Source of the DNA: a virus
Length of the DNA stretch: 39,874 nt
Virus record (IMG/VR): IMGVR_UViG_3300009154_000107
Span: 1-39,874 of that record
Strand: one strand, 5' to 3'
How positions within the stretch are numbered: the stretch's first letter is position 1; each line of letters begins with the position of its first letter. Positions 2,729-30,178 of the stretch are shown piece after piece. Both the position numbers and the translations under genes were made by a program. The notes beneath the pieces were generated by a model that searched no databases, was not told the DNA's origin, and worked only from the letters and a program-made list of their open reading frames with translations.

Positions 2729-2756
2729 GATATTCCTTTGTAGATTAACAGAATGA

Positions 2757-3142: not shown

Positions 3143-3150
3143 GCTAAATA
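3143..3150 (+). promoter_or_regulatory. Late promoter box (GCTAAATA) for the baseplate operon
   Basis: GCTAAATA matches TATAAATA at six of eight positions and lies 23 bp before the TTG start of the first baseplate gene. By analogy with T4 late promoters, transcription would begin near 3156. This leaves a short leader containing the GGGGGG ribosome site at 3161-3166. Confidence 0.5.
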
Positions 3151-7222: not shown

Positions 7223-7230
7223 CATAAATA
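7223..7230 (+). promoter_or_regulatory. Late promoter box (CATAAATA) abutting the hub-lysozyme start
   Basis: CATAAATA matches the late consensus at seven of eight positions. It ends five bases before the ATG at 7236. With T4 geometry (box about -13 to -6) transcription would begin at the A of the ATG. No Shine-Dalgarno sequence lies close to this start, so a leaderless mRNA is predicted. Confidence 0.65.
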
Positions 7231-7235
7231 TCTGT

Positions 7236-10200
7236 ATGGTTACATGGTCAAGGCACACTTCATCAACCGCTGGTTATAATCTGCAACCAGACGGTCGCTC
7301 AACACTAGTCGATAAGATCTATGTTGGTTTCGTAAAAGAGACATCAGACGGTCTCTATATGGGACGACTCAAAGTGTGGATACCCGAACTGGGATCCGAC
7401 CCCAATGATTCAACTACATGGTATATTGTCAGTTACTGTAGCCCTTTTGCAGGTGCTACCAATGTTGAAAACAACAAAAACAACAACAACACCGAAAGTA
7501 CTCAGACCAGTTATGGTATGTGGTTTGTACCACCTGATATCAACAATGAAGTAGTGGTAGCCTTTATAAATGGTGATCCGTCTCGCGGTATTTGGTTAGG
7601 TTGTCTATATCAACAAAATATGAATCAGATGGTGCCGGGTATACCTGGGTGCAACAGTCAACCCACCCTGCCAACCACCGAATACAATAAACGTTTGACG
7701 CAGCAAAATGGCCAACCTCAGAACAGACCCTTGTATCCTTTGGCTGCTCAATTGGTACAACAGGGTCTACAGAATGACATCATAAGAGGAGTCACCAGTG
7801 CTGGTGCGCGGCGCAGTGATCCACCAAACATGGTTTCTGGTGTGCTTACACCCGGAGGAGCACAATTTGTTTTTGACGATGCGCCCGACAATTCATTCAT
7901 ACGCCTGCGCACTGTCAATGGAGTTCAACTGCTGTTGAACGACACTACTGGTTGCATCTATCTAAATTCAGTTGATGGTAAAAATTGGATCAGTATGGAT
8001 GCGGGAGGCAGGATTGATGTATATGCCTATGGTGACATCAGTTTACGCAGCCAAGGCAGTCTCAATTTTCGTGCCGATCAAGATGTCAACATCGAAGCCG
8101 GCCAAAATATCTATATGCGTGCTAGAGGTACTACCGCAACAACTCCTGTAGTCAATCCCGGCGCCAACGAAGCTCAGCCTATGCCGCCTACTCCGGGACC
8201 AGCTGCAATGATAGGAGATGGCACTGCTGCGGCTGTAGCACAGCGTATACCAGGCAGTAACCTGCTGGCAAGACCGGGCGCATCATCAAGTGATTCACTG
8301 TTAACGGTACAGTCTAATGTTGGTGATGTGGGCGGAACAGTAAATGGTGTGATCAGTACAGGTGCAGATGAGTCGGATCAATCATTGCTGCTGGCTAATA
8401 TCACTGCTATACGAGCAACGCTAGAGGCATCTAATTATATATGGATTCTACCATATGCTGCAGAATCAGCTGAGACTGTCAAGACCTTTGCATCCAGCAA
8501 GGGTGATCAAATCATACCGTTAAGCAACTATCCTACCAACGACAACATCACGCCACGTGACTATAATGTTCTAACCAATGACGTGCAGGCACTGCTGAAA
8601 CCCGCCAATCCGCAAGGTTCAACTCCGCAGCAAACTGGCTCAACCGGCAACGCACCAACAGGTCCAAGTTCAACTCAGCCTCAGGTTGGATCAGCATCTC
8701 CCAGCGCAACTGGTATAACCGGACCAGGTGGTTTAGGTAGCAGTAACAATACCTGTGTTGCACCAGCGCCTATTCCACAAGCCCCAACCTGTAAATCTAC
8801 CGGAACCGTAGCACCCGCTACCTCCACCGGAACAGGTGCTGAGACCGCACCCCCAGCAGGCACCACTACTACCAGTGTGCTGATGTCGTTCCTGCCACAG
8901 GTTGAGGGGTTCAGTGCCAATGCCTATTGGGATAAACATTCAGAACACATAAGCATAGCCTATGGACATCAGATCAAAGACAACGAATATGCACAAGGCT
9001 ATATCGACACAGGCACTGCAGGACGCATAACAGTTACTGGCCGTGGCAATCCAAACCAAAAACCACCAGGAGTTGCTACCTGCACCAAGGAGCAGGGGGT
9101 GGCATTGTTGTCCATTGACATACAGTCGTATCTTGCAGGGGCACATAAGCAAGTTGGCGGAGCCTGGGATCTGCTGAATCCCTATCAACAGGCTGCGTTG
9201 ACCAGTGTACAGTATAATCTTCCAAGTGCCCTGCGATGGATGGTCACCAACGGGCTCAATAATGCAATTACCACCAAAGATCTGCAGGGTGTTGCAAACC
9301 TCATCATATCATCACCTCGCAAGGGTATTGGCAACAGAGCCACTCAAGAGGCCAATCTCTATACTGGACATCCAGAACTGCTGGGTACCGGGGGTTCCAC
9401 TCCAATACCCGGACAGCCTGGTGGCGGCTGCAGTAGTACGGTAGGCGGTACTGGCGGAGCGTCACGACCAAACTGTGGTTTGGTAGTCAACAACCCCAAC
9501 ATAAAAAATGGCTACATTCGCATGCAAAGTACCAATAGCATGCACTTGCTCAGCAACCAGTACATGTTCCTTACCTCTGCCTTAGACATGCATAGATACA
9601 GCGGCGGCAACATGTTTGACACAGCCGGGCAGAATTGGAATAGAGCAGCAGGTGGATTTGTGCACGAAAGTGTTGGTCAAGACTATTCTGTTGGAGCCGC
9701 CACTGAAATTAATCTATTTGGCACTCGAATTGATCTTAACGGTACACAGCCACCTTTGGCAGTGGTGGCTGTGTCAGCACAGGGCCCAAATGACATAAAC
9801 CAACAAGATGGTATTCTTGACACACTGGGCAATGTAATTCCTGTGTTGACTGATACCATAGTGTACCATCTACCATACCATGAACCCTATGACAATCACG
9901 GTGGTCGCAATGCCTACGGCATTCAAAATGCTACCACATACAACACAAACACAGGTCTTCGTGCCGGCGAAGTAGTGCGCAACAGTCCTAAACCATTGAA
10001 TCTGGTGGGTAGCCCATTGGCAGATATGCCGCTGGGAGTCTACATTGGAGCAGGGTATAACTTACAAGATCAGCCAGTCTACGCTTACCAAGGCATAGCC
10101 AATGCCAATGTGCGGTCCACCGACAGTCTGCAGCTGTCTGATGCCGGCGCACAGTTTATGATTGGTTATGAAAATGGCAGTTACATAACCATCATAGTCG

Positions 10201-10724
10201 GTGAGCCACCGGTAGCACAGATCGGCTACGGACATAACCTCACACCGGTTGAGATCAGCACAGGTCAGGTTTCAATTTCAGGCAGCAGTTATAGCCTGGC
10301 GGCACCATTAAGCCAGCAGTTGATCAGCCAACTGTTTCAGCAGGACATGGTGGATGTGCAGAACTGGATGAGACAAGTGGCTAATGTAGCCGTGACCCAA
10401 ACACAATACGACATGCTGTGTAGTCTGGCCTTTAACATAGGTCAAAACAATTTTACCAATTCAAACGTGATTAAGGAATTAAAAGCAGGTAATATACAAA
10501 ACGTACCAAACACCTGGATGCAATGGACATTGAATGGCAACAACAAGTTAGTGCCTCAGTTGGTTCAGAGACGACTGGCCGAGTCCACCAATTTTATGAT
10601 TGCACCTTTTCAACAAGTGGTTCCAAACCAAAATACAGAAGTTCAGACTTCTACACTGACACTGGGCAATCCGGGTATGCCTGGCAGTGCCATGCCAAAA
10701 CCTCTTCCTCCAAACCAAGGATGA
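7236..10724 (+). CDS. 5: gp5-like baseplate hub protein with two lysozyme-like domains
   Basis: The protein is 1162 aa; T4 gp5 is 575. Residues 22-130 are an OB-fold gp5 N-domain (IYVGFVKETSDGLYMGRLKV, PDINNEVVVAFINGDPSRGI). Residues 205-296 are beta-rich, like gp5/VgrG. Residues 323-455 resemble an SGNH hydrolase with altered catalytic positions. The first lysozyme-like domain (about 545-715) has E557 and D566 in EGFSANAYWD, spaced as Glu11 and Asp20 of T4 lysozyme, then SIAYGH. A second beta-rich stretch spans about 755-845. The second lysozyme-like domain (about 962-1122) has E979, IGYGHNLTP and LVPQLVQRRLAEST, but the Asp is not evident. The protein should pierce the envelope and cut peptidoglycan during infection. 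It lies next to the hub-like gene. Confidence 0.85.
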   Translation: MVTWSRHTSSTAGYNLQPDGRSTLVDKIYVGFVKETSDGLYMGRLKVWIPELGSDPNDSTTWYIVSYCSPFAGATNVENNKNNNNTESTQTSYGMWFVPPDINNEVVVAFINGDPSRGIWLGCLYQQNMNQMVPGIPGCNSQPTLPTTEYNKRLTQQNGQPQNRPLYPLAAQLVQQGLQNDIIRGVTSAGARRSDPPNMVSGVLTPGGAQFVFDDAPDNSFIRLRTVNGVQLLLNDTTGCIYLNSVDGKNWISMDAGGRIDVYAYGDISLRSQGSLNFRADQDVNIEAGQNIYMRARGTTATTPVVNPGANEAQPMPPTPGPAAMIGDGTAAAVAQRIPGSNLLARPGASSSDSLLTVQSNVGDVGGTVNGVISTGADESDQSLLLANITAIRATLEASNYIWILPYAAESAETVKTFASSKGDQIIPLSNYPTNDNITPRDYNVLTNDVQALLKPANPQGSTPQQTGSTGNAPTGPSSTQPQVGSASPSATGITGPGGLGSSNNTCVAPAPIPQAPTCKSTGTVAPATSTGTGAETAPPAGTTTTSVLMSFLPQVEGFSANAYWDKHSEHISIAYGHQIKDNEYAQGYIDTGTAGRITVTGRGNPNQKPPGVATCTKEQGVALLSIDIQSYLAGAHKQVGGAWDLLNPYQQAALTSVQYNLPSALRWMVTNGLNNAITTKDLQGVANLIISSPRKGIGNRATQEANLYTGHPELLGTGGSTPIPGQPGGGCSSTVGGTGGASRPNCGLVVNNPNIKNGYIRMQSTNSMHLLSNQYMFLTSALDMHRYSGGNMFDTAGQNWNRAAGGFVHESVGQDYSVGAATEINLFGTRIDLNGTQPPLAVVAVSAQGPNDINQQDGILDTLGNVIPVLTDTIVYHLPYHEPYDNHGGRNAYGIQNATTYNTNTGLRAGEVVRNSPKPLNLVGSPLADMPLGVYIGAGYNLQDQPVYAYQGIANANVRSTDSLQLSDAGAQFMIGYENGSYITIIVGEPPVAQIGYGHNLTPVEISTGQVSISGSSYSLAAPLSQQLISQLFQQDMVDVQNWMRQVANVAVTQTQYDMLCSLAFNIGQNNFTNSNVIKELKAGNIQNVPNTWMQWTLNGNNKLVPQLVQRRLAESTNFMIAPFQQVVPNQNTEVQTSTLTLGNPGMPGSAMPKPLPPNQG

Positions 10725-12320
10725 TCAATTCTGGACCTTAAGGTCCAGAGTGTTGACCACACGGCCTGCATCCAACACCGCATCTATGATCTGACCCTTG
10801 TTGAACAGCATGTCCGCCATTTCCTCTTCAATGGTGCATTCGGCTACCAAATTCCAAACAGTAACAGAGTCTGCTGTCTGTCCGAGGCGGTGGATTCTGT
10901 CAGCACACTGGCTGATCTCACCGGGACTCCACGGGAGTTGCACAAATGCCACTGATTTGGCAGCAGTAAGAGTCAATCCAAAACCCCCTACGTTGATACC
11001 AACAATAATCACCCGCACACTGTCAGCATTTTGAAAGTTCATTACAGCGTCAGCCCTAGCTTCATCAGTGACTCCGCCATAAATCACTGCTACTGCGTCT
11101 TTATAGTCAGGATCACTTTCCAACGCCGTCTTGATGTGTTCGATCACCCGGCGATTGTGTGCAAATACTACTAGTTTCTCACCTTCGGCGGTATAGTCTT
11201 GGATCCATTCAACTACAGCGGGTAGTTTGGCATAGCCGGCAATCTCGCGCAGTTTCTGTATGGCCACAATAGCAGCATCGCTGGTTGGGACTTGTCCCCC
11301 CATGTTGATGATGGCCTGCATACCTGCTGCCCAGTTGATGCCTTTGAATGCCGCTTCTACGCGATCATACTCTGTGCGATCAAATTCCAACGGCAGTGTG
11401 CGATAGGTCTTGGCTGGCAGTTCTTTCAATACATCCGCCTTCAAACGCCGCAGCATAACATGCTTGTTCAACAACGCATGTAGTTCATCGGTGTTGTTAG
11501 CACCATTGAAATCCCAACCATATGGCGTCTTGCGTGCATTGGTATACCGCCAGACGAACCGGGTAAAAGTGCCAAATTCTGGCACCCATGAGGCCAAGGT
11601 GTTGACTGATGTCCACAGTTCAAGGGGCCGGTTTACCAAAGGCGTGCCGCTCATCATCACCACACGTCTAATACCTGGACCAAATGTTTGGACTCCGGTT
11701 GTCTTGTTGTCATAGCCACCAACTGCCAAACGCTGCACAGCTTGAGTGCGTTTGGCAGTTGGATTCTTTATCTTATGGCTCTCGTCTACAGCCATAAATT
11801 TTAGATCAAGTTTCTCCAGTGCAGCACAGTTGCTAGACAAGATATCATAGTTGATGATATACAAGTCGCATCCTGGTACTGGAGTCTTGCTGTAGATCAC
11901 ATTTGGATGCCGAGACGCACGCAATTCAGTCTGACGCCTGCTATAGGACTTGCCCACAACATTGATGCGATAGGCTGTGCCTGTCATGGCCAAAATCTCA
12001 TTGCGCCAGTTGAGTTTCAAGGTATTTGGCACTACTATCAAAGCTGGCAACATTTGACACTTGTGAATATAAGCCATAACCTGCACGGTTTTACCAGTTC
12101 CTTGTTCATCGGCAAGGAGACCGCAGCCGTCCTGTCGTTCCAGCCAAGCCACACCTTCAGCTTGATAATCTTTGAGCGTGAAAGCAAAACCAGGTATGGT
12201 GGTCACACGCGGAATATTGTCAAGCACTGACAATACCTCTGGATCAATAGTCAATCCATGTTTTACGGCTAACCTATTAATCTTGCATACGTTAGCAACG
12301 GTTGCGGCTACTGAAAGCAT
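10725..12320 (-). CDS. SNF2-family helicase, SMARCAL1-like
   Basis: The 531-aa protein has all the main SF2/SNF2 motifs: Walker A ADEQGTGKT (70-78), DESH (179-182), SGTP (224-227), MLRRLKADV (289-297), GGFGLTLTAA (445-454) and QCADRIHRLGQT (471-482). SMARCAL1/ZRANB3-type enzymes are DNA translocases that anneal or remodel forked DNA. In T4-like phages a SNF2-type protein could substitute for UvsW, which remodels forks and R-loops. Residues 10-36 resemble the spacer normally found between HARP and SNF2 domains, and the HARP-like part is in a separate gene two genes upstream. The ATG at 12320 follows GGAGG. The stop directly abuts that of the convergent hub gene. Confidence 0.88.
   Translation of the reverse strand: MLSVAATVANVCKINRLAVKHGLTIDPEVLSVLDNIPRVTTIPGFAFTLKDYQAEGVAWLERQDGCGLLADEQGTGKTVQVMAYIHKCQMLPALIVVPNTLKLNWRNEILAMTGTAYRINVVGKSYSRRQTELRASRHPNVIYSKTPVPGCDLYIINYDILSSNCAALEKLDLKFMAVDESHKIKNPTAKRTQAVQRLAVGGYDNKTTGVQTFGPGIRRVVMMSGTPLVNRPLELWTSVNTLASWVPEFGTFTRFVWRYTNARKTPYGWDFNGANNTDELHALLNKHVMLRRLKADVLKELPAKTYRTLPLEFDRTEYDRVEAAFKGINWAAGMQAIINMGGQVPTSDAAIVAIQKLREIAGYAKLPAVVEWIQDYTAEGEKLVVFAHNRRVIEHIKTALESDPDYKDAVAVIYGGVTDEARADAVMNFQNADSVRVIIVGINVGGFGLTLTAAKSVAFVQLPWSPGEISQCADRIHRLGQTADSVTVWNLVAECTIEEEMADMLFNKGQIIDAVLDAGRVVNTLDLKVQN
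10730..10749. repeat. 20-bp perfect palindrome at the convergent hub/helicase junction
   Basis: The half-site TCTGGACCTT is followed by its exact reverse complement. It lies in the last codons of the helicase gene and just past the hub stop codon. As RNA it would form a strong hairpin in both transcripts. No T-run follows on either strand, so intrinsic termination is doubtful. It may block read-through or protect 3' ends at this tail-to-tail junction. Confidence 0.55.
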
Positions 12321-12373
12321 GCGAACCTCCGTCCTTGATGCCGTATATTAGCATCGCCTACAATGTTGTCAAT

Positions 12374-13258
12374 CTAAGATATGCGGAAATTAATGTAGTC
12401 AACTATGGCCTTGGCCATGTCCTGACCGCAGTAGGTCTCAAAACCTTCAAAGCCCGGGGCACTGTTGGCTTCACAAACCTTGAAGCCGTCTATATCGAAC
12501 AACAGGTCAACTCCTGCTATGTCAAGCCCTAGAATGCGAGCAGTTTCGCGAGCGATAAATTCAATTTCTGGAGTGATTTCATGTGGAGAACCGGTGCCGC
12601 CATTGCTGATGTTGGCCCGAAAGTCATTAGCCGAAGTACGTTGCATAGCTCCGATGACCTTGCCACCTACGACCCACACACGCAGATCGGTTCCGGGCTT
12701 GTATCCGATATATTCCTGAATGATCAAACTCTTGTTGGTACTGAGGCTGTTGATCAATTCCATAACTTCGGCAAAACTGTTGCGGTCCTTGCAGAGATAC
12801 ACACCCTTGCCATAACTGCCAGTTATGACTTTGACTACGCAAGGCCAACCTATCTCACTAGAGACCAAATCTTCGTTGATTGGCCAACGTACCAGCATGG
12901 TCTTGGGAATTGGTATACCGTGACGAGCCAGCAACTGGCTGGTTTCTAATTTGTCCTTAACACGGTCAATGCTTTCGCCATTGTTGATCACCGGAACACC
13001 AAGGTTTTCCATCTGTCTCATGGCTGCAAGACAAAAATAATTTGAGCCACTACCAGTTCTTGCCAACACTGCATCAGGCATGTCCGCTCGTATGCCGTCT
13101 AGCCAAATGTTAGCAAGGTCTTTTTTATTGACCACTAGATCTAATGTATCTGGATGTACCAGGATGCTTGTGATGTTTTGATCAGCAAAACTCTCTAGAA
13201 GACGACGATTCTCATATTCCTGAATAGTTTTTCTAGAAAGGATCCAAATGTTTGCCAT
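12374..13258 (-). CDS. RimK-like ATP-grasp ligase
   Basis: The 294-aa length is typical of RimK. Visible features are SIDRVKDKLETSQLLARHGI (linker before the grasp fold), PCVVKVITGSYGKGVYL (K143 and the glycine-rich loop), IIQEYI (adenine-side contacts), DLRVWVVGGKVIGAM, and the metal-binding end GVDLLFDIDGFKVCEANSAPG (D251, E263, N265). E. coli RimK adds glutamates to the C-terminus of ribosomal protein S6; other members ligate amino acids to different acceptors. The substrate here is unknown, with host S6 or a phage protein as candidates. It lies between the HARP-like gene and the helicase on the same strand. Both an extended -10 promoter and a late box precede it, and there is no convincing ribosome site. 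Confidence 0.85.
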   Translation of the reverse strand: MANIWILSRKTIQEYENRRLLESFADQNITSILVHPDTLDLVVNKKDLANIWLDGIRADMPDAVLARTGSGSNYFCLAAMRQMENLGVPVINNGESIDRVKDKLETSQLLARHGIPIPKTMLVRWPINEDLVSSEIGWPCVVKVITGSYGKGVYLCKDRNSFAEVMELINSLSTNKSLIIQEYIGYKPGTDLRVWVVGGKVIGAMQRTSANDFRANISNGGTGSPHEITPEIEFIARETARILGLDIAGVDLLFDIDGFKVCEANSAPGFEGFETYCGQDMAKAIVDYINFRIS

Positions 13259-13264
13259 GCGTCT

Positions 13265-13272
13265 TATTTATC
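13265..13272 (-). promoter_or_regulatory. Late promoter box (GATAAATA) abutting the RimK-like start
   Basis: On the minus strand GATAAATA matches the late consensus at seven of eight positions and ends six bases before the ATG at 13258. The predicted start lies within about one base of the ATG, with no Shine-Dalgarno sequence between them. Confidence 0.5.
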
Positions 13273-13298
13273 CAAATATCTGACGGATTAATCACAGC

Positions 13299-13307
13299 AT
13301 TATATCA
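13299..13307 (-). promoter_or_regulatory. Extended -10 sigma70 promoter for the RimK-like gene
   Basis: On the minus strand TGATATAAT is a perfect TGnTATAAT extended -10. A weak -35 (TTGAAT) lies 15 bp upstream. Transcription would begin near 13292, 34 bases before the gene, allowing expression before late transcription begins. Confidence 0.5.
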
Positions 13308-13321
13308 AAGCCATATGCGAT

Positions 13322-14026: not shown

Positions 14027-14053
14027 TTCGATCTCCTTGCTTGCCATGCCTAC

Positions 14054-14081
14054 AGAATAGCAGACAAAAATCTTCTGTCAA
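14054..14081 (-). promoter_or_regulatory. Sigma70-type promoter for the HARP-RimK-SNF2 operon
   Basis: On the minus strand a perfect TTGACA (14076-14081) is separated by 16 bp from TATTCT (14054-14059). Transcription would start near 14047, about 20 bases upstream of the ATG at 14026 and before its AAGGAG ribosome site. This favours the downstream start codon. Confidence 0.55.
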
Positions 14082-14143
14082 CCAAAACCCTGCTGCAATC
14101 TGCTATGATCCGCAAGTTCCTAAAAATCACCATCTTTTACCTG

Positions 14144-14151
14144 GATAAATA
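14144..14151 (+). promoter_or_regulatory. Late promoter box (GATAAATA) abutting the gp25 start
   Basis: GATAAATA matches the late consensus at seven of eight positions and ends five bases before the ATG at 14157. The geometry is the same as at 7223-7230, placing the predicted start at the A of the ATG. There is no Shine-Dalgarno sequence next to the ATG. Confidence 0.65.
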
Positions 14152-14156
14152 TCGCT

Positions 14157-14540
14157 ATGGCAACACTAACAAGCAAAAACATGTTCGTTGGGTATTCTAC
14201 CGTAAACACCTTTGGCAGCCAGCAATTGGCTGACATAGCAATAGTCAATCAAGACCTGTTGAATGTGTTTTATACCCGTAAGAACGAAAGAGTAATGATG
14301 CCCGGCTATGGATTTGGAGGATGGGATTATCTCTTCGAACCAATTGATCAGGTACGAGACATCATAATATCAGAAGCACAACAGGTGATCAACAACGATC
14401 CAAGAGTGCAGATTCAATCCATAAACGTAGCACAACAGCAGTTTGGATTAAGCATACAGATGACCTTGTTCTATGTGCCATGGCAGGCAATTGGTACATT
14501 TGAAATCAACTTTGATAATCGCAGCGCAGCTTTAGCGTAA
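14157..14540 (+). CDS. 25: Baseplate wedge protein gp25
   Basis: The 127-aa protein is close in length to T4 gp25 (132 aa). Diagnostic segments are DIAIVNQDLLNVFYTRKNER, MMPGYGFGGWDYLFEPID, and a C-terminal half with IISEAQQVINNDPRVQIQ and LFYVPW. The R-G-xP-x-FG...LFEP pattern is the GPW/gp25 signature. gp25 anchors the first sheath ring to the baseplate and nucleates sheath assembly. It heads the gp25-gp6-giant-protein block; gp6 follows 13 bases later. The gene is preceded by a late box with no ribosome site, so its mRNA may be leaderless. Confidence 0.93.
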   Translation: MATLTSKNMFVGYSTVNTFGSQQLADIAIVNQDLLNVFYTRKNERVMMPGYGFGGWDYLFEPIDQVRDIIISEAQQVINNDPRVQIQSINVAQQQFGLSIQMTLFYVPWQAIGTFEINFDNRSAALA

Positions 14541-14553
14541 AAGGAATTTATCG

Positions 14554-17500: not shown

Positions 17501-18231
17501 TGAATCAATCAGTTATGTATCAATACCAAAGCATCTCCGCGGAAGTTGTAGGTACATTGGTAGATGTCACGACAAAGTATAAAGTACGTATTGGTCGCAA
17601 TAATCTAAGTTTTCTCTGGGTGCATACTCCGCCAACAGATCAACGCATTAACCCGGCAGTCACTAATGTCATTGACATGTATGTGTTGACAACATCATAT
17701 GATACTAATATCCGCAATTGGATTGCCACTAATGGTAGTTTGGCCACACTGCCTCTACCCGAAACCAGTGCTCAACTGGCAGCAGAATTCAGTAACCTAG
17801 ATCAATTTGCCATGATGACAGATCAAATGGTTTGGCATCCTGTAACATATGTATTGTTGTTTGGTCCACAAGCACCGCAGGAACTGCAGGCCAACTTTGT
17901 TGTGGTACCTGTTCCTGGTACAACTTTTACCAATAATCAAATACAGAGTTTGGTTATACAATCAATAAACCAATATTTCTCTCTCAGGAATTGGGATTTT
18001 GGTGATAGTTTTTTCTTTACAGAAATGGCTGCATATATCCATCAAAATCTTGCTACTATAATCGGCAGCATCGTAATGAAACCCATCAGTGCGCAGGCGG
18101 TTTTTGGTAATCTTTTTGAAATACAAGTGGGTCCTGATCAGATAGTACTCAGTTGTGCAACCGTAAACAACGTGCAGATAGTGCAGAGTCTGACTGATTC
18201 AGTATTAGGGATAAACAACAGCAATGGCTAA
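14554..18231 (+). CDS. 6: Baseplate wedge protein gp6, enlarged
   Basis: The N-terminus has DFQTIRSAMINYIRLNYPED, VALIDLLAYLGQSIAFRMDL and FIETAQRRDSIFKLARMLSY, the hallmark of gp6 in T4-like phages. At 1225 aa it is about twice T4 gp6 (660 aa). The extra length includes a Gly/Thr/Val-rich insert around residues 565-690 and a small beta module around 800-860 with GLSVGLIVIGAGIPAGSKVV. The C-terminus (SLRNWDFGDSFFFTEMAAYI, then SIVMKPIS) matches the end of gp6. gp6 forms the inner iris that holds the wedges together and reshapes on contraction. AAAAGGAA precedes the ATG. The last eight bases overlap the next gene, so translation is probably coupled. Confidence 0.88.
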   Translation: MATTQQVRQSQLFAAHDWQVIYTAYTQINFSAYDFQTIRSAMINYIRLNYPEDFTDWIESSEFVALIDLLAYLGQSIAFRMDLNTRENFIETAQRRDSIFKLARMLSYQPQRSIPASGQLQITSVITDQPVIDADGNNLQNIKINWNDLNNPNWYEQFILVMSASFNSTNPFGNPAQSGTVNGISTQLYTMNNTSIPTSVLPFTATAAGNTLNLELINPGFKGGTNTNILNSGSFFEINPNPLNSWNIIFQNDGNGFSSPNTGFFLYFKQGTMQYQDYQCSQPIANRIIDVNASNVNQTDVWVQTIDANGLVINQWIPVPAVVGSNIIYNSLANNVRNIYSVISRNVAGGDQISIRFADGTFGNVPIGIVRVWYRISNNLTYQITPNDIVNQVFAFSYVDNLNNIWNIALTTNLQYTVTNAQSGETNAQIALNAPQTYYTQDRMVNGEDYNLFPLSEAAILKVKAVNRFYSGQSRYLSVNDPTGTYNGLNVVCTDGIFYSENDLSTNIVTNAPGINLNVIVKTQIQPMINGSFGHQLDAIELEQFYFYNYPTVAIPNGYTWGTVTSSTKTCSGAIYVGAVAVQVGSFAPRTSFLLYITKGAIIQFASGAVASVVGVVGDGTGVNLTGSTNGVTSGPNAGPGAITLSIPVASNDIPVSIIPAYHTTLSATAVTAIAAAMALRNTFGIRYSQAGVPNSVGTLDYWVVVPTVDLNSNNTFSMLYAGDTSNTNKDNSWLLLVTWTGAGWTVNARALRYIFESASQNQFYFDNFNKSFDPNTGSTNYDYINILSTNSNSQTASYQTTAPIVTRGSYSFSVLSTTGLSVGLIVIGAGIPAGSKVVSIVGNTVSINHAITVSGTNVILGFYPNPSLGKDYLWQIIGQQTDPDGYTNPSSVHVTMWQSNNYGVPNDPNEYNQVVNPSDTPQLLLFWVSVTSSDGYQYWQPIEIPLSQIFQTVNQIPPITIIVKGQVVINPYWVQGKIVWVMNQSVMYQYQSISAEVVGTLVDVTTKYKVRIGRNNLSFLWVHTPPTDQRINPAVTNVIDMYVLTTSYDTNIRNWIATNGSLATLPLPETSAQLAAEFSNLDQFAMMTDQMVWHPVTYVLLFGPQAPQELQANFVVVPVPGTTFTNNQIQSLVIQSINQYFSLRNWDFGDSFFFTEMAAYIHQNLATIIGSIVMKPISAQAVFGNLFEIQVGPDQIVLSCATVNNVQIVQSLTDSVLGINNSNG

Positions 18232-21200: not shown

Positions 21201-24200
21201 CTTTGTGGTGGACAGAACAGTATGGCGCGGCCCCCTACACCAGTGGTAATACTGCACTGTGGCAAGATCTTGCATCTGGAATCATACGGCAGGGTCAGCG
21301 CGCAGGCACTTATTCTGTTTGGGCAAGACCCGGACTGATGTCCTGCATACCAGTGGATGCACAAGGTAATCTCTTGCCCCCAGTACTGTCCGGCTGCGCA
21401 GCTTATCTGCCAACTGCCACTGCTGCCCAAGCACCTTGGATTTTTGGCGATGGGGGGCCTGTAGAAAGTGCTTGGATACATTCTCAATACTATCCATTTG
21501 TAGAGTCCGTTACGGGATACCTTATGAAGCCTGCGGCATTTGTTGAATATACCTGGGACAGCCTCCGTACCCAAGAGATTTATCCAGCCACTAACGAAAG
21601 CCAATGGATCTACATAGATACCAATACAAGACGCGCAAGTGATCAATTCTATATCAATAGAGAAACTCCTAACACATTAGTAACTGGGGTCTACGTTCCC
21701 GATGAAACCAATCTTGCCTATTTTGCCAGTGCAGGTTTTCAAGTTTGGATTACTGAATATGTTGTGAGTCAAGGACTATCTGTGACCAACTTTATCGGCA
21801 GTGTCATAAGGGGTGGCAACGTAAAATTGGCACATCGCATGGCCGGCTATATCAACACTACTAATTTACGCGGAGTTGTTGACAGTTTTGGCCAAATAGG
21901 CTACAACAGCCAAATCATACCAAATGAAAACATCAGCACCTATCTCTATCGCAGCACCAGCACTGGAAATTATTACTACAGCGGAGTTATAGTGCAACAG
22001 GTAGTTGGTGGTTGGAAGATATATGGTTATGATGCAATCGAACAATTTTTTACCATAATACCGTCCAATACATCTGGATCCAAGATCAACATTGCCATAG
22101 GCAATCAACAAGTTACAGAATATCAAACAGGCCTAACCAACAGCATTAAAATCGTGCTGTATAATACAGTATTGACATCATATCAACAGGTATATGACTT
22201 TTTGATCAGTTACGGTCGCTGGCTGACATCACAGGGTTGGGTATTTGAAACCTATAGTAGCAATGCGGGAGCAGTGTTGAACTGGAGCCAAAGTGCTAAA
22301 GAATATCTACTTTGGGCACAAGGATCATGGGCCAACGGCACACTGATTGCACTGAGTCCCAGTGCAGCATCAACTCAGTTTACCACACCAGTTGGTATGA
22401 TAAACTATGTGAATGGTATTATCAGTGGGACCTATCCTGTAGTAGATAGGGCAGGACAGCCAATACAATCACAGCATCTCGATGTGCTACGCAACGAAGG
22501 TGTAATGACCGTTCAGCCAAACAACACGCAGGGCATCTACGGCATGAGGTTGTTCACCACAACCATAGAACATGCTGTGTTTTTTGACAATCTTACAGCA
22601 TTTGGTGATGTAATTTACGAACCTCTTTACAATCTACAACAACAGCGCATCAAACTCTATACCTATCGAGCCAATGGCTGGAATGGTACCATAAATGCTC
22701 CAGGTTATGTTGTAATACAGAACAATACCACGGTCAACGGGCAGACAGTTTCTTCAAATACCTGGACCATGACCAACAACTTTGACAAAACTGCCAGCGA
22801 TTTTACCAAGTACTTCAACATCGATGAACCAAAGAACTATTCAAAAATCACCTATGGCGGTGTCAATACCATTACATCCAGCAGCACGCTGGGGTCCATC
22901 GATAACCAAGCCATAGCCAATATATCCAAGCACACAATAGGTTATCAACCACGGGCTTATCTGCAAAATCTCCTTCTAGACGAATCGGTAGAATTCCAAT
23001 TCTATCAAGGTTTCATCAGGCAAAAAGGTACATTGTCCAGCATCAATGCCCTGTTGCGCAGTTCATCGATTATTCCAACCGGCAGTACATTTAATTATTT
23101 CGACGAATGGATGATACGTGTTGGAACCTACGGGGCCACAGCGTTCAATGTGGACATCGAATACATCTTGCCTCAGTCATATATCAACTATGATCCTCAG
23201 TGGATCAGATTTTTCAGCAGCACTAGTAATAATCCCAATGACAATGTGTTTGATATAGTACCAAATGATCCATTATTGATCACGCCGCCGGCCACCTATA
23301 CCACAAAGATTTTTGGTCTACGCAATTCATATGCGTCAGATCCAGCTACTGACATTCCAACTGCTGGCTATGCTCAGTTAGGTGAAACAAACTGGTATGT
23401 TGCCAACACCAGCGAACTAAAAGGTCTCTATTCTAGTGTGCTGTACACTAATAGGCCTTTGAACTTCTATGATACAGTTTGGCAATTTATCACTGACAAC
23501 GGATCTTGGATGGTATGGATTTTGTCTCCTGCTGCAAGTCAACCGTCCTACACTATACCCAGCACGAGTTTTGGTACTCCGACTACTATAGTAACATCTG
23601 GTCCACACGGATTGCTCAACGGGGACCTTTGTGTGGTATTTGGCGTAGCAGGTACGCCGGCAATCAACAACACTTATGTGATTGGATCAGTTACACCAAC
23701 TACATTCAATATACAAATCAGCACATTCACTGCAGGTTCAGGCGGCACTATCTGGGTATATCGACCAATGAGATTTGCCAACATTTTTGATCGAGATACC
23801 AGTGCCCCACCTGGCGGGTATCAAGAAGGCAATCTAGTCTATGTCGACCAAGGCGGTATCATACCAAATGCATGGACAGTATATCATTATGTACGCAGCC
23901 AATTTGTACCATATAGACAACAACCGCTGCAGGTTGACCCAAACCTGCTGCAATCCAGCGCCATCTACAACATCAAGACTGGCAAAAATCTTGCCAGTCT
24001 TGAATACTGGGATCCAGTAAAGGGCAAGATACCAGGCCAGGCACAGCAGGAACTTACCTTTATCACAGATGTAGACCCAGCTACCTACAATAGTGGAGAC
24101 ACCGCCGGATATTTGGTAAATCCCAGCCTTGCATGGAGCAGCGCACAGATAGGACAAACCTGGTGGGATGTTGCACAGGTTAGATATTTAGATTATGAAC

Positions 24201-27200
24201 AGGGCGACGATTCATATAGACTACGCACCTGGGGGCAAATAGCACCGGGCACTGCTGTTGTGGTGTATGAATGGATACAAAGCAGTGTATCCCCAACTGA
24301 CTGGGCCACATCAGTTGCTGCTGGCACAGCCATTATGGTCAATGGATCAATGGTAATTCCGTCTGGCACAGTAAAAGAACCTTACAATTGGGTTCAACTA
24401 CAACAGTATAATAATCAAAATCAACCAACAACCTATTATTATTTCTGGGTTGGCAACAGCGGCCTCCCCCCATCTGGTATTAACAGACGTTTAAGCACCT
24501 CTGCTATTGCAACTCTTATACAAAGACCTAGCCAAACCGGTGTGCCATGGTATGCTGCTATAAGCCAAAACAGCATCATCCTTGGAAATGTACAGAATCT
24601 GTTAAATGGCCTGCAAGTGGCGCAGCGCATTAACTACACTTCCAAAGCCAATAATGCCAACATCTACAGCGAGTGGGAGTTGATCAGACAGGGAGATCCA
24701 AACAGTCCTATCAATACCACTGTATGGTCAAGGCTCAAAGCCAGTTTGGTAACCTTCGATGGAATGGGCAACGATGTCCCAGATTACCATCTCAATGCCT
24801 ACAACAGATACGGTACCTTTATACGTCCTAGACAAACATGGTTTGTCAACAGAGTGTCAGCCAGTGAATTATTTGTCAGTACCTTTAATAATCTAGCAGC
24901 ATCTAGCAATACTCCATTGGTATATGACGCTGGTATAGCAAGCTGGTTAAATTACTTTGACGCTGCTGAACCAATACCAACTCAATTTAGCAATATCTTG
25001 CTGTCAGTAACAGGTACTGCAGCTAATCGTGTTGTGGTAACATCAACCCTGGGTATGATACCTGCACAGCCGGTGGTATTCAACAGCAGCATTGGCGGGT
25101 TAATCGGTGGCACAACCTACTATGTTTTGGCAATCACCAGTCAAACTACCTTTAGTGTCAGCATGGTACCTGGTGGCGAAGTCATTGAACTTGCTGATAC
25201 TTCTGTGACAACTACGGCTACAGAGACCGTTACTGTCTGGGATTATCAAGTGGCTGACCTAACACAACGCGACGGTCTGATTGGAGCAATATTGCCCGGT
25301 CAATTGATACTGTGTGATGCCAACAGCAGCACTGATAACAAATGGTCCATATGGCAATATACTAACAACAGTCAACAATATTGGTCTTTGACACGCATAC
25401 AATCCTATAACACAGCCAATTATTGGCAATATGTCAATTGGTATGCAACAGGCTACAGTGCAGAAACACCACCAAACACCAGCGTTGAAACGATTGCAGA
25501 TTTATATGCCATAGCCAACCCCACTCAGGGTCAACTTGTAGAGGTGGTCAACGGTGGTGATGGTAATTACCAATGGTGGGCATATTCAAACAGCGCGTGG
25601 TCTTTGGTATGTCAACAAAATGGCACCATGCAGGTGCTGCCAAGTGTGTATCAATGGGCTGAAACTTCTGGTGGATTTGACGGATCGCCATTTGATGCTG
25701 CTGGTACCAGCAGTATTTTCAATCCATTGCCAGTATTCGATGACAATGCTGCCATTGAGTTTGCCAATATAATAGATGGTATATATTTGGCCATCTTCCC
25801 AGGACCAAACAGCATTGAACTTAATTCCTTGTTCTTTGCCATGACCAATTTTGTAGTTGCCGAACAGCTACAGGCAGATTGGATTTTCAAGACCAGCAAC
25901 ATAGTGTTCAACGGTTTCAACCAAACTCTAGGTCAACCGCCACTATTGGCTGTAAACAACACCAACAGCATATTGGCATTCATCAACGAAACCAAACCCT
26001 ATCATGCCAATATACAGGACTATACCAATGGGTATTCGGCACTAGATCCGGCCAACGCCTCTGTGGTGGATTTTGATGTACCGTTTGCCTATCTCACTAC
26101 CAATACTCCCTCAAACGCAGTAAACCCATCAAATATCACGGTCAATACAACAAATCTTGAAGGAATTGAATACCGCAATACATATAGTGCATGGTACGAA
26201 AATTACCATGCAGCCACATCGGTGACACTACAACAGTATATTGATCCAAATCTTGTAAGACAATTGACCACCAAGATGGTTTTTGATAGGATCAGTAATC
26301 CGGCACTGTTGCTGGGTTGGGGCAGCACTTGGTCAATATTTGGTTGGTCAAATGAAAATGCTGGCCAAAACTTTGGAGCACTGACTCGTATAGAAGACAA
26401 CTATGCACCAACTCCCGGTATGATTCCCAATGTAATATCTGATCTCATGCAGGGTGTAGTTTATCGCGGACAAACCATAGGCAATCTTGGGTTCTCAGCC
26501 GAACCAGGATGGAGCGCAGGCCCATGGGGAGGACTATTGGGTTGGGATGCTGACCGAGCTGTGGTAGATGCATATCTTGACCAAATCATACAAGGCGGAC
26601 AGATACCAGATTATGATACCGCTGTAGGTGACGGCCAAACCGTTACATTCCCACTAAAACGTGGCGCACAAAACCCCAACAGCCTAGTGGTATGGAGTGA
26701 CGGGGGACTGAGGTTGTATGGTGTTGACTGGTTTGTACCAACATATGCAATAAATGCCTATGTTTTTGATGGCGGCACTGGTTATAGTATTGGAGATCAA
26801 ATAAATGTGCTGGCAGGGTCTGGCATAGTACCAGTTCGTCTGCAGGTAACAGAAGTAAGTCATGGCAGCATTACTGCTGTAAACATACTGGGTAAAGGTT
26901 CTTATACCACTGTTCAGCCTGGACCATACAAAACACAATACCCACCGGCCTATCCAGGTTTTGGCACCAATGCAATGATAGGTGTTGATTGGTCCTGTGC
27001 TTGGATACAATTCACTACACCACCAGCTAGTAGTGCAACACCAAATGTCTTTATACTCTATATAGGCACTACATTTGAATCTGCAGCTACCAATCCCAGT
27101 GACAGTATCTATGATGGCTACGAGTTTGTTCAGCCTTATGTAGATGACAATCACCCAGAAGAATTGTACCCAATGCTGCCTAGAGATTGTCTAATAATGG

Positions 27201-29422
27201 ATACCTACATTAGGCAGAACGGCGGAAGACCGCTGGTAAGTGCTCGTGCCTATGTTACAGATGGAACAACATCGCAATATGATCTTTTGGTAACACCTCA
27301 AAGCGATCAGGCTGTTATGGCATATCTTAATGGCTCGGCGCTGACCGTTGGAACAGGCGGTGATGTTGTTGTAAACTATAATACACGCAAATTGGTGTTT
27401 ATTAATACACCACCGCCTGATCAAATGCTGTATATAACTGCCATAGGATTTGGCGGAGCCAGCAGAGGCATAGCAGCAGCCTATGTGGTTTCTGGTGGTA
27501 ATGGATATGTAGTAGGTGATACACTGACGCTATCCGCGGGGATACCTTTTCAACCAGGGACGTCTGTGCGCCCTGCGCAACTTACAGTGACCAATGTGGG
27601 AGTCCACAACAGTGTAGTTGCTACCAACGTTTTGGATCTAGGTCTATATCCGCAACTACCACCACAACCGATAGCCGCTACAGGTGGTCATGGTAATGGT
27701 GCAAACTTTATTGTGAGTTTCACAGATGATTTCCAAATGTACCATTTTACAGGAGATGGAGTAAACAAAAACTACCCAGTGCCAGGGACCAGTGACAATT
27801 TCCAACCAGGTGTGATGCTGAATATCGACGGAATTCTCACCCCAATAGCAGGTTACACTTCAACCGGTGTTTATCTATCCTCAGCACCAGACTATGGCAG
27901 TACTGTAACTTTGGCATCTTTTACCACTTCACAGTTCTCGGTAGTACAAGAAACACTGCTAACCATAAACAACTCGTCAGAGTTGACATATACTATTACA
28001 CAGGCATCTAGCACACAGCCCAATTACATATCAACTATGGTAAGGCGCAACGGTTTGTTGCTGACACCTCCGTTACTGCAGGAATGGTCTGGTAACCAAT
28101 ATCAAACTCACTTTAACATCACAGTAGATCTTACCAACGCGGTAACAACAACTGTATACATAGACAGTGCTCTTCAGGTCATTGGAGTTGATTACACTAT
28201 ACAGAATAATGTTTTGATATTTGCTGCTGCACCAATTAATCTCGCCACAATAGTGTTGGTATGCGTGAATCCCAGCACACATTATACTATTGCAGGCACC
28301 AGCATTACTTTTGCAGCAGGATCAATTCAAGTTGATGATACGGTAATTATCACCACCTATACTCAGGACATTGATTACCAATTCCATACGGATGAATTTA
28401 CCGCCGTTGAGACAGGGACCTATACGTTGACAGCCTATCCAGAGGATCCAAATACCATACAGGTTTGGTACAACAAAGTTTTACAGGTACCACAACAAGA
28501 CTATACACTGTCCACCACTGCCGCCAGCAGTGGTTGGGGCAATAGCGGTTGGGACAATTATGTATGGGCCGTGCCAACGCCTAAAATGCTGAATATAATT
28601 TTACAACAACCTGATGCAGGTTGGGCCAACGGCGGCTGGGCAGTTTCACAACAACCTGATGAAGGTTGGGATTATCTGCCACCAATAAACATAAACTATA
28701 TGACAGGAAGACCACAGGCCCCTGCTATTTCATGGCGAACCACTACAGGCTGGGATGCAACTTTGTCCACAGCACTAGATAACACACGCATGACTTATAT
28801 TCTAAGCAATGTCTATACCTACAGTAGCACTATTGAAGTGGCAGATGTGTCTGTATTGACACTGCCAAATATTGGTATACCTGGTTTGATATATATCAAT
28901 AATGAATTGATAAGTTTCATGCAGGTGCAACCTGCGCCAACGGCTGTTTATCCAAATAGAGCATTTTTGGCTGGTATTGCTCGCAATAGGTTAGGTACTT
29001 CGGGATTGCCTCAAACAGTCTACAACACGTTCTACTACAACGGCAATGGAATCAACACTGTATTTGCCAGCGAGTCTGCCAGTCAAGCAATCTCTACCAC
29101 TGTATTTGTCAACGGTCAAATGCAAATTGAAAGCATTGATTATCAATTTGTTACCAACCCAACTGGATACCCAGCAGGGTACTATGTGCGATTTATTGCT
29201 GCTGCACCCGGCATCGGAATCAAAAACATACGAATAGCCTGTCTAAATCAAATCTCCTACAAAACTAAGCTCAGTCATGCTGTGCCAGCAAATGTTATAG
29301 ATGCAGGACAACAGGTTGAAATACCCGGAGGCTATTCTTGGGTAGCAACACCAAATGGTTTGCAATATAGCGACTCGTCGTTGGGAATATTTCTTTTAGA
29401 ACACTCTGCAGAAACTAAATAA
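18224..29422 (+). CDS. Giant 3732-aa virion protein, probably a baseplate wedge or peripheral component
   Basis: The frame is unbroken over 11.2 kb. The conserved N-terminus (RYPIELLPEYLQTDALKKVF, FLDGYVGHIPPWYNPL, AFQGALVNNHDRLFAQEYY) follows gp6 exactly where T4 has gp7 (1032 aa), so a gp7-like wedge role is inferred from position only. Downstream are appendage-type modules. A PHGLLNGDLCVVFGV module lies near 1790. Two GGxGYxxGD modules lie near 2850 and 3090. At least five loosely repeated beta units with an NG-L-x-GVDY or aP-G-i pattern lie near 570, 3035, 3200, 3315, 3415 and 3630. A Trp/Gly-rich stretch lies near 3440-3485. Such modules are usual in tail fibres and spikes, so it may combine a wedge anchor with surface-exposed parts. 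The exact role is unknown. Confidence 0.6.
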   Translation: MANINTTYLQRYPIELLPEYLQTDALKKVFNATVNHLFQPASVEFLDGYVGHIPPWYNPLTDFYIPEPDANRQNYQLDPTVVSSPYNNPELTNAMFYEDLIGQLAFQGALVNNHDRLFAQEYYSWSPPIDLDMFTNYTNYFWLPNGPDAIILLNTTDLVNTAAGQTAYSYVGSVIYSSNNTTATFTASAPLVFTTGLKIIPKADQTLLLNDQELIIGGVGRSIQLINFSDIAYTNWDLGGWDLYGWSGVTDPTTLYVTIARGSSDGNQWSSQNRWFHIDIINISKTLVSNISNNQAARPIIQFDVDTQLWNYGTNNRGIITIVDTVNTSILKNIVGQPYWTINGVPLQDGMRILSLADNSPEAAGKIFIVSGQANGAIQLTVDTSGCHSSDGQPTQGDRATVQFGLLQGQNIYYNNGVWTTNCQQLIGLTPPLFQLYDIDGNSMSDPSVYPSSSFMGSQVFSYAIDPTQPIDPYLGQSVQLDQFGDWVFDNNLTTDTVTYVSNSTRINYNGYLFAQIGSTYIDSWYTAPQLSRQYIINQFDLTTDTTVFVIDQAPAAQSDNTLPTIFVRINVNQNDKLLVNGVDYTVSNNVVTLTVPAVAGSIVEIASWNPVAPVNITGYYQIPLNISANPNNLPITSVARSQFLQQFQEIIENQTGIVGPALGKNNYRDTAQQRGLGLSILQHRAPMIKLNLLNSVPLNNINLTTAPTDPVQAMQYAENSYTRFYNRFLRALFNVAAQQGYTASSDPNVCNPYNTALWITTALNQINIGKTPASPWANTGYGGPPGAYGLIQATNPLYIPATATRLGITSAFTPMVYFDTSYLTPQLTIQTHDGARIVMVDNQGVPLGTILHNQSMTTNPEQLTNPVAAAWLQFELNMFNNLPPAYSNPEATLVFDITTYAPGRWRTTDYTAAEYIQLQRGAFDKWVINNQIDYQSNTGYNPSDPFSFNYSTVTDQQGNSIPGGWQGIYRWFYDTDRPHICPWEMLGFSQEPLWWTEQYGAAPYTSGNTALWQDLASGIIRQGQRAGTYSVWARPGLMSCIPVDAQGNLLPPVLSGCAAYLPTATAAQAPWIFGDGGPVESAWIHSQYYPFVESVTGYLMKPAAFVEYTWDSLRTQEIYPATNESQWIYIDTNTRRASDQFYINRETPNTLVTGVYVPDETNLAYFASAGFQVWITEYVVSQGLSVTNFIGSVIRGGNVKLAHRMAGYINTTNLRGVVDSFGQIGYNSQIIPNENISTYLYRSTSTGNYYYSGVIVQQVVGGWKIYGYDAIEQFFTIIPSNTSGSKINIAIGNQQVTEYQTGLTNSIKIVLYNTVLTSYQQVYDFLISYGRWLTSQGWVFETYSSNAGAVLNWSQSAKEYLLWAQGSWANGTLIALSPSAASTQFTTPVGMINYVNGIISGTYPVVDRAGQPIQSQHLDVLRNEGVMTVQPNNTQGIYGMRLFTTTIEHAVFFDNLTAFGDVIYEPLYNLQQQRIKLYTYRANGWNGTINAPGYVVIQNNTTVNGQTVSSNTWTMTNNFDKTASDFTKYFNIDEPKNYSKITYGGVNTITSSSTLGSIDNQAIANISKHTIGYQPRAYLQNLLLDESVEFQFYQGFIRQKGTLSSINALLRSSSIIPTGSTFNYFDEWMIRVGTYGATAFNVDIEYILPQSYINYDPQWIRFFSSTSNNPNDNVFDIVPNDPLLITPPATYTTKIFGLRNSYASDPATDIPTAGYAQLGETNWYVANTSELKGLYSSVLYTNRPLNFYDTVWQFITDNGSWMVWILSPAASQPSYTIPSTSFGTPTTIVTSGPHGLLNGDLCVVFGVAGTPAINNTYVIGSVTPTTFNIQISTFTAGSGGTIWVYRPMRFANIFDRDTSAPPGGYQEGNLVYVDQGGIIPNAWTVYHYVRSQFVPYRQQPLQVDPNLLQSSAIYNIKTGKNLASLEYWDPVKGKIPGQAQQELTFITDVDPATYNSGDTAGYLVNPSLAWSSAQIGQTWWDVAQVRYLDYEQGDDSYRLRTWGQIAPGTAVVVYEWIQSSVSPTDWATSVAAGTAIMVNGSMVIPSGTVKEPYNWVQLQQYNNQNQPTTYYYFWVGNSGLPPSGINRRLSTSAIATLIQRPSQTGVPWYAAISQNSIILGNVQNLLNGLQVAQRINYTSKANNANIYSEWELIRQGDPNSPINTTVWSRLKASLVTFDGMGNDVPDYHLNAYNRYGTFIRPRQTWFVNRVSASELFVSTFNNLAASSNTPLVYDAGIASWLNYFDAAEPIPTQFSNILLSVTGTAANRVVVTSTLGMIPAQPVVFNSSIGGLIGGTTYYVLAITSQTTFSVSMVPGGEVIELADTSVTTTATETVTVWDYQVADLTQRDGLIGAILPGQLILCDANSSTDNKWSIWQYTNNSQQYWSLTRIQSYNTANYWQYVNWYATGYSAETPPNTSVETIADLYAIANPTQGQLVEVVNGGDGNYQWWAYSNSAWSLVCQQNGTMQVLPSVYQWAETSGGFDGSPFDAAGTSSIFNPLPVFDDNAAIEFANIIDGIYLAIFPGPNSIELNSLFFAMTNFVVAEQLQADWIFKTSNIVFNGFNQTLGQPPLLAVNNTNSILAFINETKPYHANIQDYTNGYSALDPANASVVDFDVPFAYLTTNTPSNAVNPSNITVNTTNLEGIEYRNTYSAWYENYHAATSVTLQQYIDPNLVRQLTTKMVFDRISNPALLLGWGSTWSIFGWSNENAGQNFGALTRIEDNYAPTPGMIPNVISDLMQGVVYRGQTIGNLGFSAEPGWSAGPWGGLLGWDADRAVVDAYLDQIIQGGQIPDYDTAVGDGQTVTFPLKRGAQNPNSLVVWSDGGLRLYGVDWFVPTYAINAYVFDGGTGYSIGDQINVLAGSGIVPVRLQVTEVSHGSITAVNILGKGSYTTVQPGPYKTQYPPAYPGFGTNAMIGVDWSCAWIQFTTPPASSATPNVFILYIGTTFESAATNPSDSIYDGYEFVQPYVDDNHPEELYPMLPRDCLIMDTYIRQNGGRPLVSARAYVTDGTTSQYDLLVTPQSDQAVMAYLNGSALTVGTGGDVVVNYNTRKLVFINTPPPDQMLYITAIGFGGASRGIAAAYVVSGGNGYVVGDTLTLSAGIPFQPGTSVRPAQLTVTNVGVHNSVVATNVLDLGLYPQLPPQPIAATGGHGNGANFIVSFTDDFQMYHFTGDGVNKNYPVPGTSDNFQPGVMLNIDGILTPIAGYTSTGVYLSSAPDYGSTVTLASFTTSQFSVVQETLLTINNSSELTYTITQASSTQPNYISTMVRRNGLLLTPPLLQEWSGNQYQTHFNITVDLTNAVTTTVYIDSALQVIGVDYTIQNNVLIFAAAPINLATIVLVCVNPSTHYTIAGTSITFAAGSIQVDDTVIITTYTQDIDYQFHTDEFTAVETGTYTLTAYPEDPNTIQVWYNKVLQVPQQDYTLSTTAASSGWGNSGWDNYVWAVPTPKMLNIILQQPDAGWANGGWAVSQQPDEGWDYLPPININYMTGRPQAPAISWRTTTGWDATLSTALDNTRMTYILSNVYTYSSTIEVADVSVLTLPNIGIPGLIYINNELISFMQVQPAPTAVYPNRAFLAGIARNRLGTSGLPQTVYNTFYYNGNGINTVFASESASQAISTTVFVNGQMQIESIDYQFVTNPTGYPAGYYVRFIAAAPGIGIKNIRIACLNQISYKTKLSHAVPANVIDAGQQVEIPGGYSWVATPNGLQYSDSSLGIFLLEHSAETK
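28604..28670 (+). repeat. 22-bp near-perfect direct repeat within the giant gene
   Basis: Two copies (28604-28625 and 28649-28670) differ at one base and are offset by 45 bp. Each encodes QQPDxGW. They lie in a Trp/Gly-rich stretch and look like a recent in-frame 45-bp duplication. Confidence 0.6.
29414..29421 (+). promoter_or_regulatory. Late promoter box (ACTAAATA) before the 45-aa gene
   Basis: The box matches six of eight consensus positions, overlaps the stop codon of the giant gene and ends four bases before the ATG at 29426. The predicted start is within about one base of the ATG, and no Shine-Dalgarno sequence is present. Confidence 0.4.
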
Positions 29423-29425
29423 CTC

Positions 29426-29563
29426 ATGTCAAAAACAGCAACACAAAAAGACCAAACACCAAACGAAAAACCCCGTGATGAAGATGTGGGCATCATGATC
29501 TACGGCAATATAAAAATACGTGATCTAGATACAGGTAAACTTTTGGTCAATCAAAGGGCGTGA
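29426..29563 (+). CDS. 45-aa mini-protein, partial duplicate of the next gene's N-terminus
   Basis: The product ends IYGNIKIRDLDTGKLLVNQR. This aligns with residues 9-29 of the next protein (IQGHVLIRDINTGEILVNKK), and the codons also resemble each other. The first 23 residues are charged and hydrophilic. The gene lies four bases from both neighbours, in line with real coding sequence. It could be a truncated paralogue left by a tandem duplication, or a short protein that binds the same partner as the N-terminus of its neighbour. The function is unknown. Confidence 0.6.
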   Translation: MSKTATQKDQTPNEKPRDEDVGIMIYGNIKIRDLDTGKLLVNQRA

Positions 29564-29566
29564 TAG

Positions 29567-30175
29567 ATGTTTGAAGATGATACCAATAATCGCATACAAG
29601 GCCATGTATTGATACGCGACATCAACACTGGCGAAATTTTGGTCAACAAGAAAAATGCCATTAATTATGAGAATTTTTCTGTGTCATTAGCAGAAACTCT
29701 CAGCAATCGTCCAACCGGATGGATACAGAACATGGCATTTGGCAACGGCGCAGCCACTGTCAGCGGTACAGGAACAATTACCTACCTACCACCAAATGTA
29801 GTAGGTACATCAGCAGAACTCTACAATGAAACCTATTTCCAATGTGTCAACGACCAAAGTCCACTGAATGCCAACCCTGCTCAGAACTATATGACCACTG
29901 CACACGTCTCTGGGACTACCTATAGTGACGTTATAGTGACCTGCACGCTGGGTTATGGACAACCATCTGGTCAAGAAGCCTTTGACAACACCACAAACAT
30001 CACTGGGACGTATGTGTTCAATGAGTTAGGTCTCAAGGCCTACAATGCTACCGATGCTGCCAATGGTACAGATACCAATGGTCTGCTGTTGACACATGTA
30101 GTGTTCAGTCCAGTACAAAAAAGTCTCAATAGACAGATTGAAATCGTCTATACCATACGTATTCAAACGGTATAA
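29567..30175 (+). CDS. Putative virion structural protein, 202 aa
   Basis: I recognise the type but not its role. The N-terminus HVLIRDINTGEILVNKKNAI, then ENFSVSLAETL and IQNMAFGNGA, is a pattern I associate with tail or baseplate proteins of aquatic T4-like phages. The rest is Thr/Asn/Gly-rich and predicted to be beta-structured, ending in QIEIVYTIRIQTV. AAAGGG precedes the ATG. The stop codon lies inside the next late promoter box. Its place between the giant protein and the fibre gene suggests a baseplate-periphery or fibre-connecting role, by inference only. Confidence 0.55.
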   Translation: MFEDDTNNRIQGHVLIRDINTGEILVNKKNAINYENFSVSLAETLSNRPTGWIQNMAFGNGAATVSGTGTITYLPPNVVGTSAELYNETYFQCVNDQSPLNANPAQNYMTTAHVSGTTYSDVIVTCTLGYGQPSGQEAFDNTTNITGTYVFNELGLKAYNATDAANGTDTNGLLLTHVVFSPVQKSLNRQIEIVYTIRIQTV

Positions 30176-30178
30176 ATA
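30171..30178 (+). promoter_or_regulatory. Perfect late promoter box TATAAATA
   Basis: This is the exact T4 late consensus. Transcription would start near 30184, giving a 26-base leader with AAGGG (30197-30201) before the fibre gene at 30210. It contains the stop codon of the preceding gene. It is the only perfect match noticed near a gene start here. Confidence 0.75.

Follow-up and report, generated by a model that had tools for sequence, protein, structure and literature searches.

Placement of a T4-type late promoter box suggests leaderless and leadered late mRNAs in large T4-superfamily phages

Genes and late promoter boxes in the window

The window, the whole stretch of DNA analysed here (39,874 bases), comes from a large T4-superfamily myovirus and covers part of its genome; by gp6, its nearest named relatives are Sinorhizobium phage Phosso and Agrobacterium phage Atu_ph07, at ~35% identity. 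Its gene content includes a gp55-like late sigma, a hub/lysozyme, gp25-like and gp6-like baseplate wedge proteins, an 11-kb structural gene and a fibre gene. Window positions 12078-39874 are matched at 99.9% by G004, a longer contig (84,333 bases) from this virus. A scan of genome contigs with gp6 for host identification found no relative. The late sigma gene (923..2782, minus strand; phrog_12791 3.4e-80, phrog_234 2.1e-14) carries an apparent intein at about residues 208-535, inside the sigma region (...RGY/CIADGDEAL...VYLTGN/TYIEEM...). This insert is common to G002, G005, G006, G009 and Synechococcus phage B23, and gp55 is contiguous, without the insert, in G003, G010, G011, 121Q and PA5oct; intein splicing could in principle gate late transcription.

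The baseplate hub/tail lysozyme gene (7236..10724, plus strand; 1162 aa with a C-terminal endolysin domain; phrog_13211 1.6e-37, phrog_7) is preceded by the late promoter box CATAAATA at 7223..7230 (plus), which ends 5 bases before the ATG at 7236, and the gp25-like baseplate wedge gene (14157..14540, plus; phrog_43 2.1e-14) is preceded by GATAAATA at 14144..14151 (plus), again 5 bases from the ATG at 14157. The RimK-like ATP-grasp ligase gene (12374..13258, minus; PF08443 3.4e-46, PF18030) has GATAAATA at 13265..13272 (minus), 6 bases from its ATG at 13258, and a 45-aa gene (29426..29563, plus) has ACTAAATA, with the core CTAAATA, at 29414..29421 (plus), where the box lies 4 bases from the ATG at 29426 and shares bases with the stop codon of the giant gene upstream. 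We assign these four genes to a predicted leaderless class. The initial annotation had placed the hub and gp25 boxes five bases before the ATG and the other two within about one base of that layout, with no Shine-Dalgarno (SD) sequence nearby; both the coordinates and the spacings are correct, and no SD core is present in the 25 nt before any of the four ATGs.

The same box stands farther from the fibre-like gene (30210..31349, plus; phrog_19602 tail fiber, 2.4e-12), where TATAAATA at 30171..30178 (plus) lies 31 bases from the ATG at 30210. If transcription starts at box+6, this SD-leadered gene would have a leader of 26 nt with AAGGG, as the initial annotation had it. A virion structural protein gene (3174..4259, plus; phrog_12050) is likewise assigned to the leadered class, its CTAAATA box at 3144..3150 (plus) being separated by 23 bases from a TTG start; its leader contains GGGGGG. 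Only 4 copies of ATAAATA occur on the two strands of the window, compared with an average of 8.3 for permuted 7-mers, and each stands shortly before a gene, at 5, 5, 6 and 31 bases; thus 4/4 copies are followed within 45 bases by an ATG ORF, versus a permuted mean of 1.2. Upstream of the 3732-aa structural gene that starts at 18224, ATAAACA stands 6 bases from the ATG, and the base at -1 is A; because this variant is little enriched (see below), it probably does not represent a box here.

Spacing and conservation among relatives

Relatives were gathered from IMG/VR, and nine partial contigs (the window, G001-G005 and G010-G012) were analysed with the box consensus NTAAATA, in which the first position is A>C>G, scanned as [ACG]TAAATA. 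The distance was measured from the box to the first ORF that begins with ATG and has at least 60 aa; gene starts in all counts are mechanical calls and pooled contig counts take in orthologues, a non-independence for which family-weighted tests allow. The spacing is bimodal, with 57 boxes at 4-8 bases, none at 9-14 and 76 at 15-39, so that about 43% of gene-linked boxes (57/133) fall in the short class. Within that class, 12 boxes lie at 4, 29 at 5, 5 at 6, 10 at 7 and 1 at 8 bases. Pooled permuted 7-mers are not bimodal (91 at 4-8, 104 at 9-14 and 388 at 15-39).

The initial annotation had named a distance no different from chance as one observation that would refute its proposal. The distance does differ: in the window and G004, 9/18 copies of ATAAATA precede an ATG ORF of at least 60 aa by 4-8 bases, versus 15/412 for permuted 7-mers (Fisher p=4e-8), and across the nine contigs the figures are 33/103 versus 91/4376 (p=9e-28; pooled, orthologues included). 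Chance as the source of box placement is thus rejected by the permuted 7-mers. Among single-substitution variants the first base alone is loose and the others lose most of the enrichment; one-mismatch boxes outside position 1, such as ATAAACA, show little or no enrichment above background and were left out of the counts. The short class is represented in forty protein families, among them those of baseplate, hub, fibre, spanin and virion structural proteins. Its members include the Rz-like spanin (lysis) gene of G004 (L080:2315-2779, minus), with a spacing of 4 that is the same in G010. A homing endonuclease gene of G005 (L087:13066-14775, minus) is preceded by a late promoter box of its own, with a spacer of 30 bases. 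At 4-8 bases, no excess was found in 121Q and Atu_ph07, and no genome-wide excess was seen in Pseudomonas phage PA5oct for ORFs of at least 60 aa.

Conservation was followed gene by gene. The gp25 box is 100% conserved in eight close orthologues, while the 33 nt upstream of it average 46% identity, and no conserved -35 element is seen there. All nine sequences with 76-100% identity have it at 5 bases; the spacing is 8 or 9 at 52-65% identity, and 31 in G006, G009 and L014 (54% identity). Hub orthologues have the box at 5 bases in G002, G003 and G005 and at 6 bases in G010; outside the clade there is no box within 45 bases, and most hub genes have an SD-like sequence instead. RimK orthologues have the box at 5, 5, 7, 7 and 7 bases. 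Orthologues of the fibre gene are leadered at 23-37 bases, and those of the structural gene at 3174 have ATAAATA at 30 bases (G005) and 21 bases (G010).

Homologues of the 45-aa gene in environmental relatives have a spacing of 4-7, and there the box and the stop codon of the gene before it often overlap. The orthologue in PA5oct, gp356, a gene of 41 codons on the minus strand whose ATG begins at record position 49602, reads ATAAATAtcgat/ATG, with ATAAATA at 5 bases. The recurrence of this layout in relatives, including a cultured phage, argues that the CTAAATA box of the 45-aa gene is real. In other phages its homologue forms the N-terminus of a fused gene: in L233, L245 and L278 it makes up one ORF together with the next, 202-aa gene (29567-30175), and the short spacing is retained at the fused start.

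Genes also change class in evolution, as evidenced by gp25, at 31 bases in G006 versus 5-8 in close relatives, and by the portal gene, at 24 bases in G005 versus 7 in G011. In the gp6 tree the lineages with a leadered gp25 (G006, Atu_ph07/Phosso and PA5oct) fall between short-spacing lineages; simple inheritance of the spacing class is therefore disfavoured, and short spacing appears to have been gained and lost repeatedly.

Predicted transcription starts and translation

At the leadered promoters the share of purines in the DNA steps up precisely at box+6, from 0.45 to 0.63 (p=9e-8). Purines peak at this position in T4 (74%), Syn9 (94%) and PA5oct/121Q/Atu_ph07 (82%) as well. Since the first TA of the T4 late box lies at -13/-12 (PMC2988020), box+6 corresponds to +1. 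In the short class this position is most often occupied by the A of the ATG, and the base before the ATG is a pyrimidine in 51/57 cases, versus 253/493 (51%) across all ORFs with 120 aa or more; weighted by family, the count is 33/40 (p=4e-5). The pyrimidine is retained at spacing 4 (11/12) and less so at spacing 7 (7/10), a pattern that suggests a shift of the start site to the A of the ATG. Some flexibility is needed in any case, because a +1 fixed rigidly at box+6 would cut the AUG at spacing 4 (12/57). The T4 geometry put forward in the initial annotation, with +1 on the A of the ATG, would strictly hold at spacing 5 only; spacings 4, 6, 7 and 8 need a shifted start site or give leaders of 1-3 nt, and for spacing 8 and part of spacing 7 such a leader would be just as likely. 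From these signals we infer that short-class transcription starts at the ATG or within ~3 nt of it.

Translational features point in the same direction. The share of genes with an SD core is 9% in the short class, 61% in the leadered class and 47% among the remaining genes, a comparison that is partly built in because the box occupies part of the SD zone. Starts at 4-8 bases comprise 48 ATG, 2 GTG and 0 TTG, with ATG enriched tenfold and GTG and TTG at background, as expected if a 5'-terminal AUG is needed; leaderless mRNAs of S. meliloti have AUG-only starts (PMC3616915), and leaderless mRNAs are thought to be initiated mainly by 70S ribosomes (PMC9031893). A spacing of 9-14 would yield leaders of ~4-9 nt, too short for an SD sequence and too long for AUG-first initiation, and the emptiness of that interval would thus fit selection acting on translation.

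We consider it highly probable, judging from the DNA, that a single gp55-type late sigma drives two classes of late mRNA, one leaderless (or with 0-3 nt) and one with an SD leader. The boxes would be promoters read by the phage gp55-type late sigma. With 4-8 bases, usually 5, between box and ATG, RNA polymerase would start on the A of that ATG or 1-3 bases upstream, and the resulting SD-less mRNA would be translated by direct recognition of its 5'-terminal AUG, presumably by 70S ribosomes; where the box lies 15-40 bases upstream, the predicted leader has room for an SD sequence. The split into leaderless and leadered late genes proposed in the initial annotation is in this way supported, at the level of DNA, by bimodal spacing, orthologue conservation, initiator signals, SD absence and ATG-only starts.

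Two candidate enablers of leaderless translation were rejected. RimK is found in G001-G005 only, and the partial contigs G010-G012 have the short class without it; a phage-encoded bS21 had no match in six contigs. The RimK-like ligase, a possible modifier of ribosomal protein S6 found in the closest contigs only, is itself a predicted leaderless late gene.

Alternative explanations and known systems

A/T-rich sites near start codons can help SD-less initiation, and the ATG-adjacent box could on that ground be a translation signal, unstructured or S1-binding, in a longer transcript started upstream. A same-strand neighbour does lie upstream of 31/55 short-class genes, 42% of those gaps being <25 nt, and the hub and 45-aa genes, each with a same-strand gene close upstream, and others like them could also be readable from longer transcripts. 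We nevertheless regard this explanation as improbable. The same motif, with the same loose first position, also stands upstream of other late genes, at 15-40 bases; permuted versions of its A/T letters are not enriched; and the -1 pyrimidine marks a transcription start and not a ribosome site. Moreover, short-class genes are enriched at operon-first positions, 24/55 (44%) being divergent from their neighbour versus 67/453 (15%).

Close spacing might instead be a functionless by-product of genome compaction, with translation weak or mainly by read-through, given that intergenic regions of jumbo phages are short (the median same-strand gap for genes without a box is 8.5 nt). Compaction predicts a continuum, yet the 9-14 interval is empty and a spacing of 5 is sharply preferred, and the equally compact T4, Syn9, 121Q and Atu_ph07 lack an excess at 4-8; we judge this account highly unlikely. 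We give even less credence to the case in which the boxes are late promoters, but translation begins at a downstream in-frame ATG, so that leaders exist and the called starts are wrong. The window gp25 does have a second in-frame ATG 24 bases on, but this codon is not conserved (Leu in most orthologues) and no earlier in-frame start is present. M1 of gp25 is invariant and codons 2-20 are under purifying selection, with 242 synonymous versus 86 other codon differences, placing the beginning of constraint at the ATG. The specific enrichment of ATG, and not GTG or TTG, at the leaderless spacing likewise speaks against a downstream start.

That the late regulon is deliberately split under one sigma into an SD-leadered and a leaderless, 70S/SD-independent translational class seems doubtful to us. 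If true, with genes switching between the classes in evolution, the output or timing of selected proteins could depend on ribosome engagement, for example when initiation factors or ribosomes change late in infection. A single promoter motif giving both kinds of mRNA would tie promoter position directly to translation mode, would show phages depending on leaderless initiation for structural proteins, and would lead to corrected start-codon calls in many jumbo phages from the environment.

In T4, the textbook system of late transcription, the mRNAs have ordinary leaders. Our search, which covered open-access literature, found no report of leaderless gp55-dependent late genes, and to that extent the predicted arrangement is new for T4-type late promoters. 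The core seen here is that of the T4-type late promoter TATAAATA, of NATAAATA in cyanophage S-PM2 and of ATAAATA in the jumbo phages CBB and GAP32 (PMC2988020, PMC2984593, PMC5259590). As in T4-type systems, there is a purine peak at box+6, no conserved -35, structural genes downstream and a gp55-like sigma; NTAAATA precedes baseplate, hub, fibre, sheath, portal and spanin genes, the leading T and A of TATAAATA not being strictly kept. The difference lies in the spacing: in T4 and Syn9 no copy of ATAAATA precedes an ATG ORF of at least 60 aa by 4-8 bases, and the leadered class is broad, from 10-12 bases up, whereas here about 43% of boxes lie at 4-8.

In Deinococcus-Thermus a -10 motif ~6-7 bp upstream of the ORF takes the place of the RBS, and the leaderless mRNAs that result have been shown experimentally (PMC12340547). 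This is the closest experimentally proven parallel, the 5' ends in our phages being predicted from DNA; it differs in that it concerns cellular genes and a housekeeping sigma (TANNNT), whereas here the motif is that of a phage late sigma and the layout involves part of the late regulon only. Lambda cI has the 5'-terminal AUG and SD-less translation (PMC9031893) predicted for the short class, but is a single regulatory gene, whereas here dozens of late genes in one promoter class would share them.
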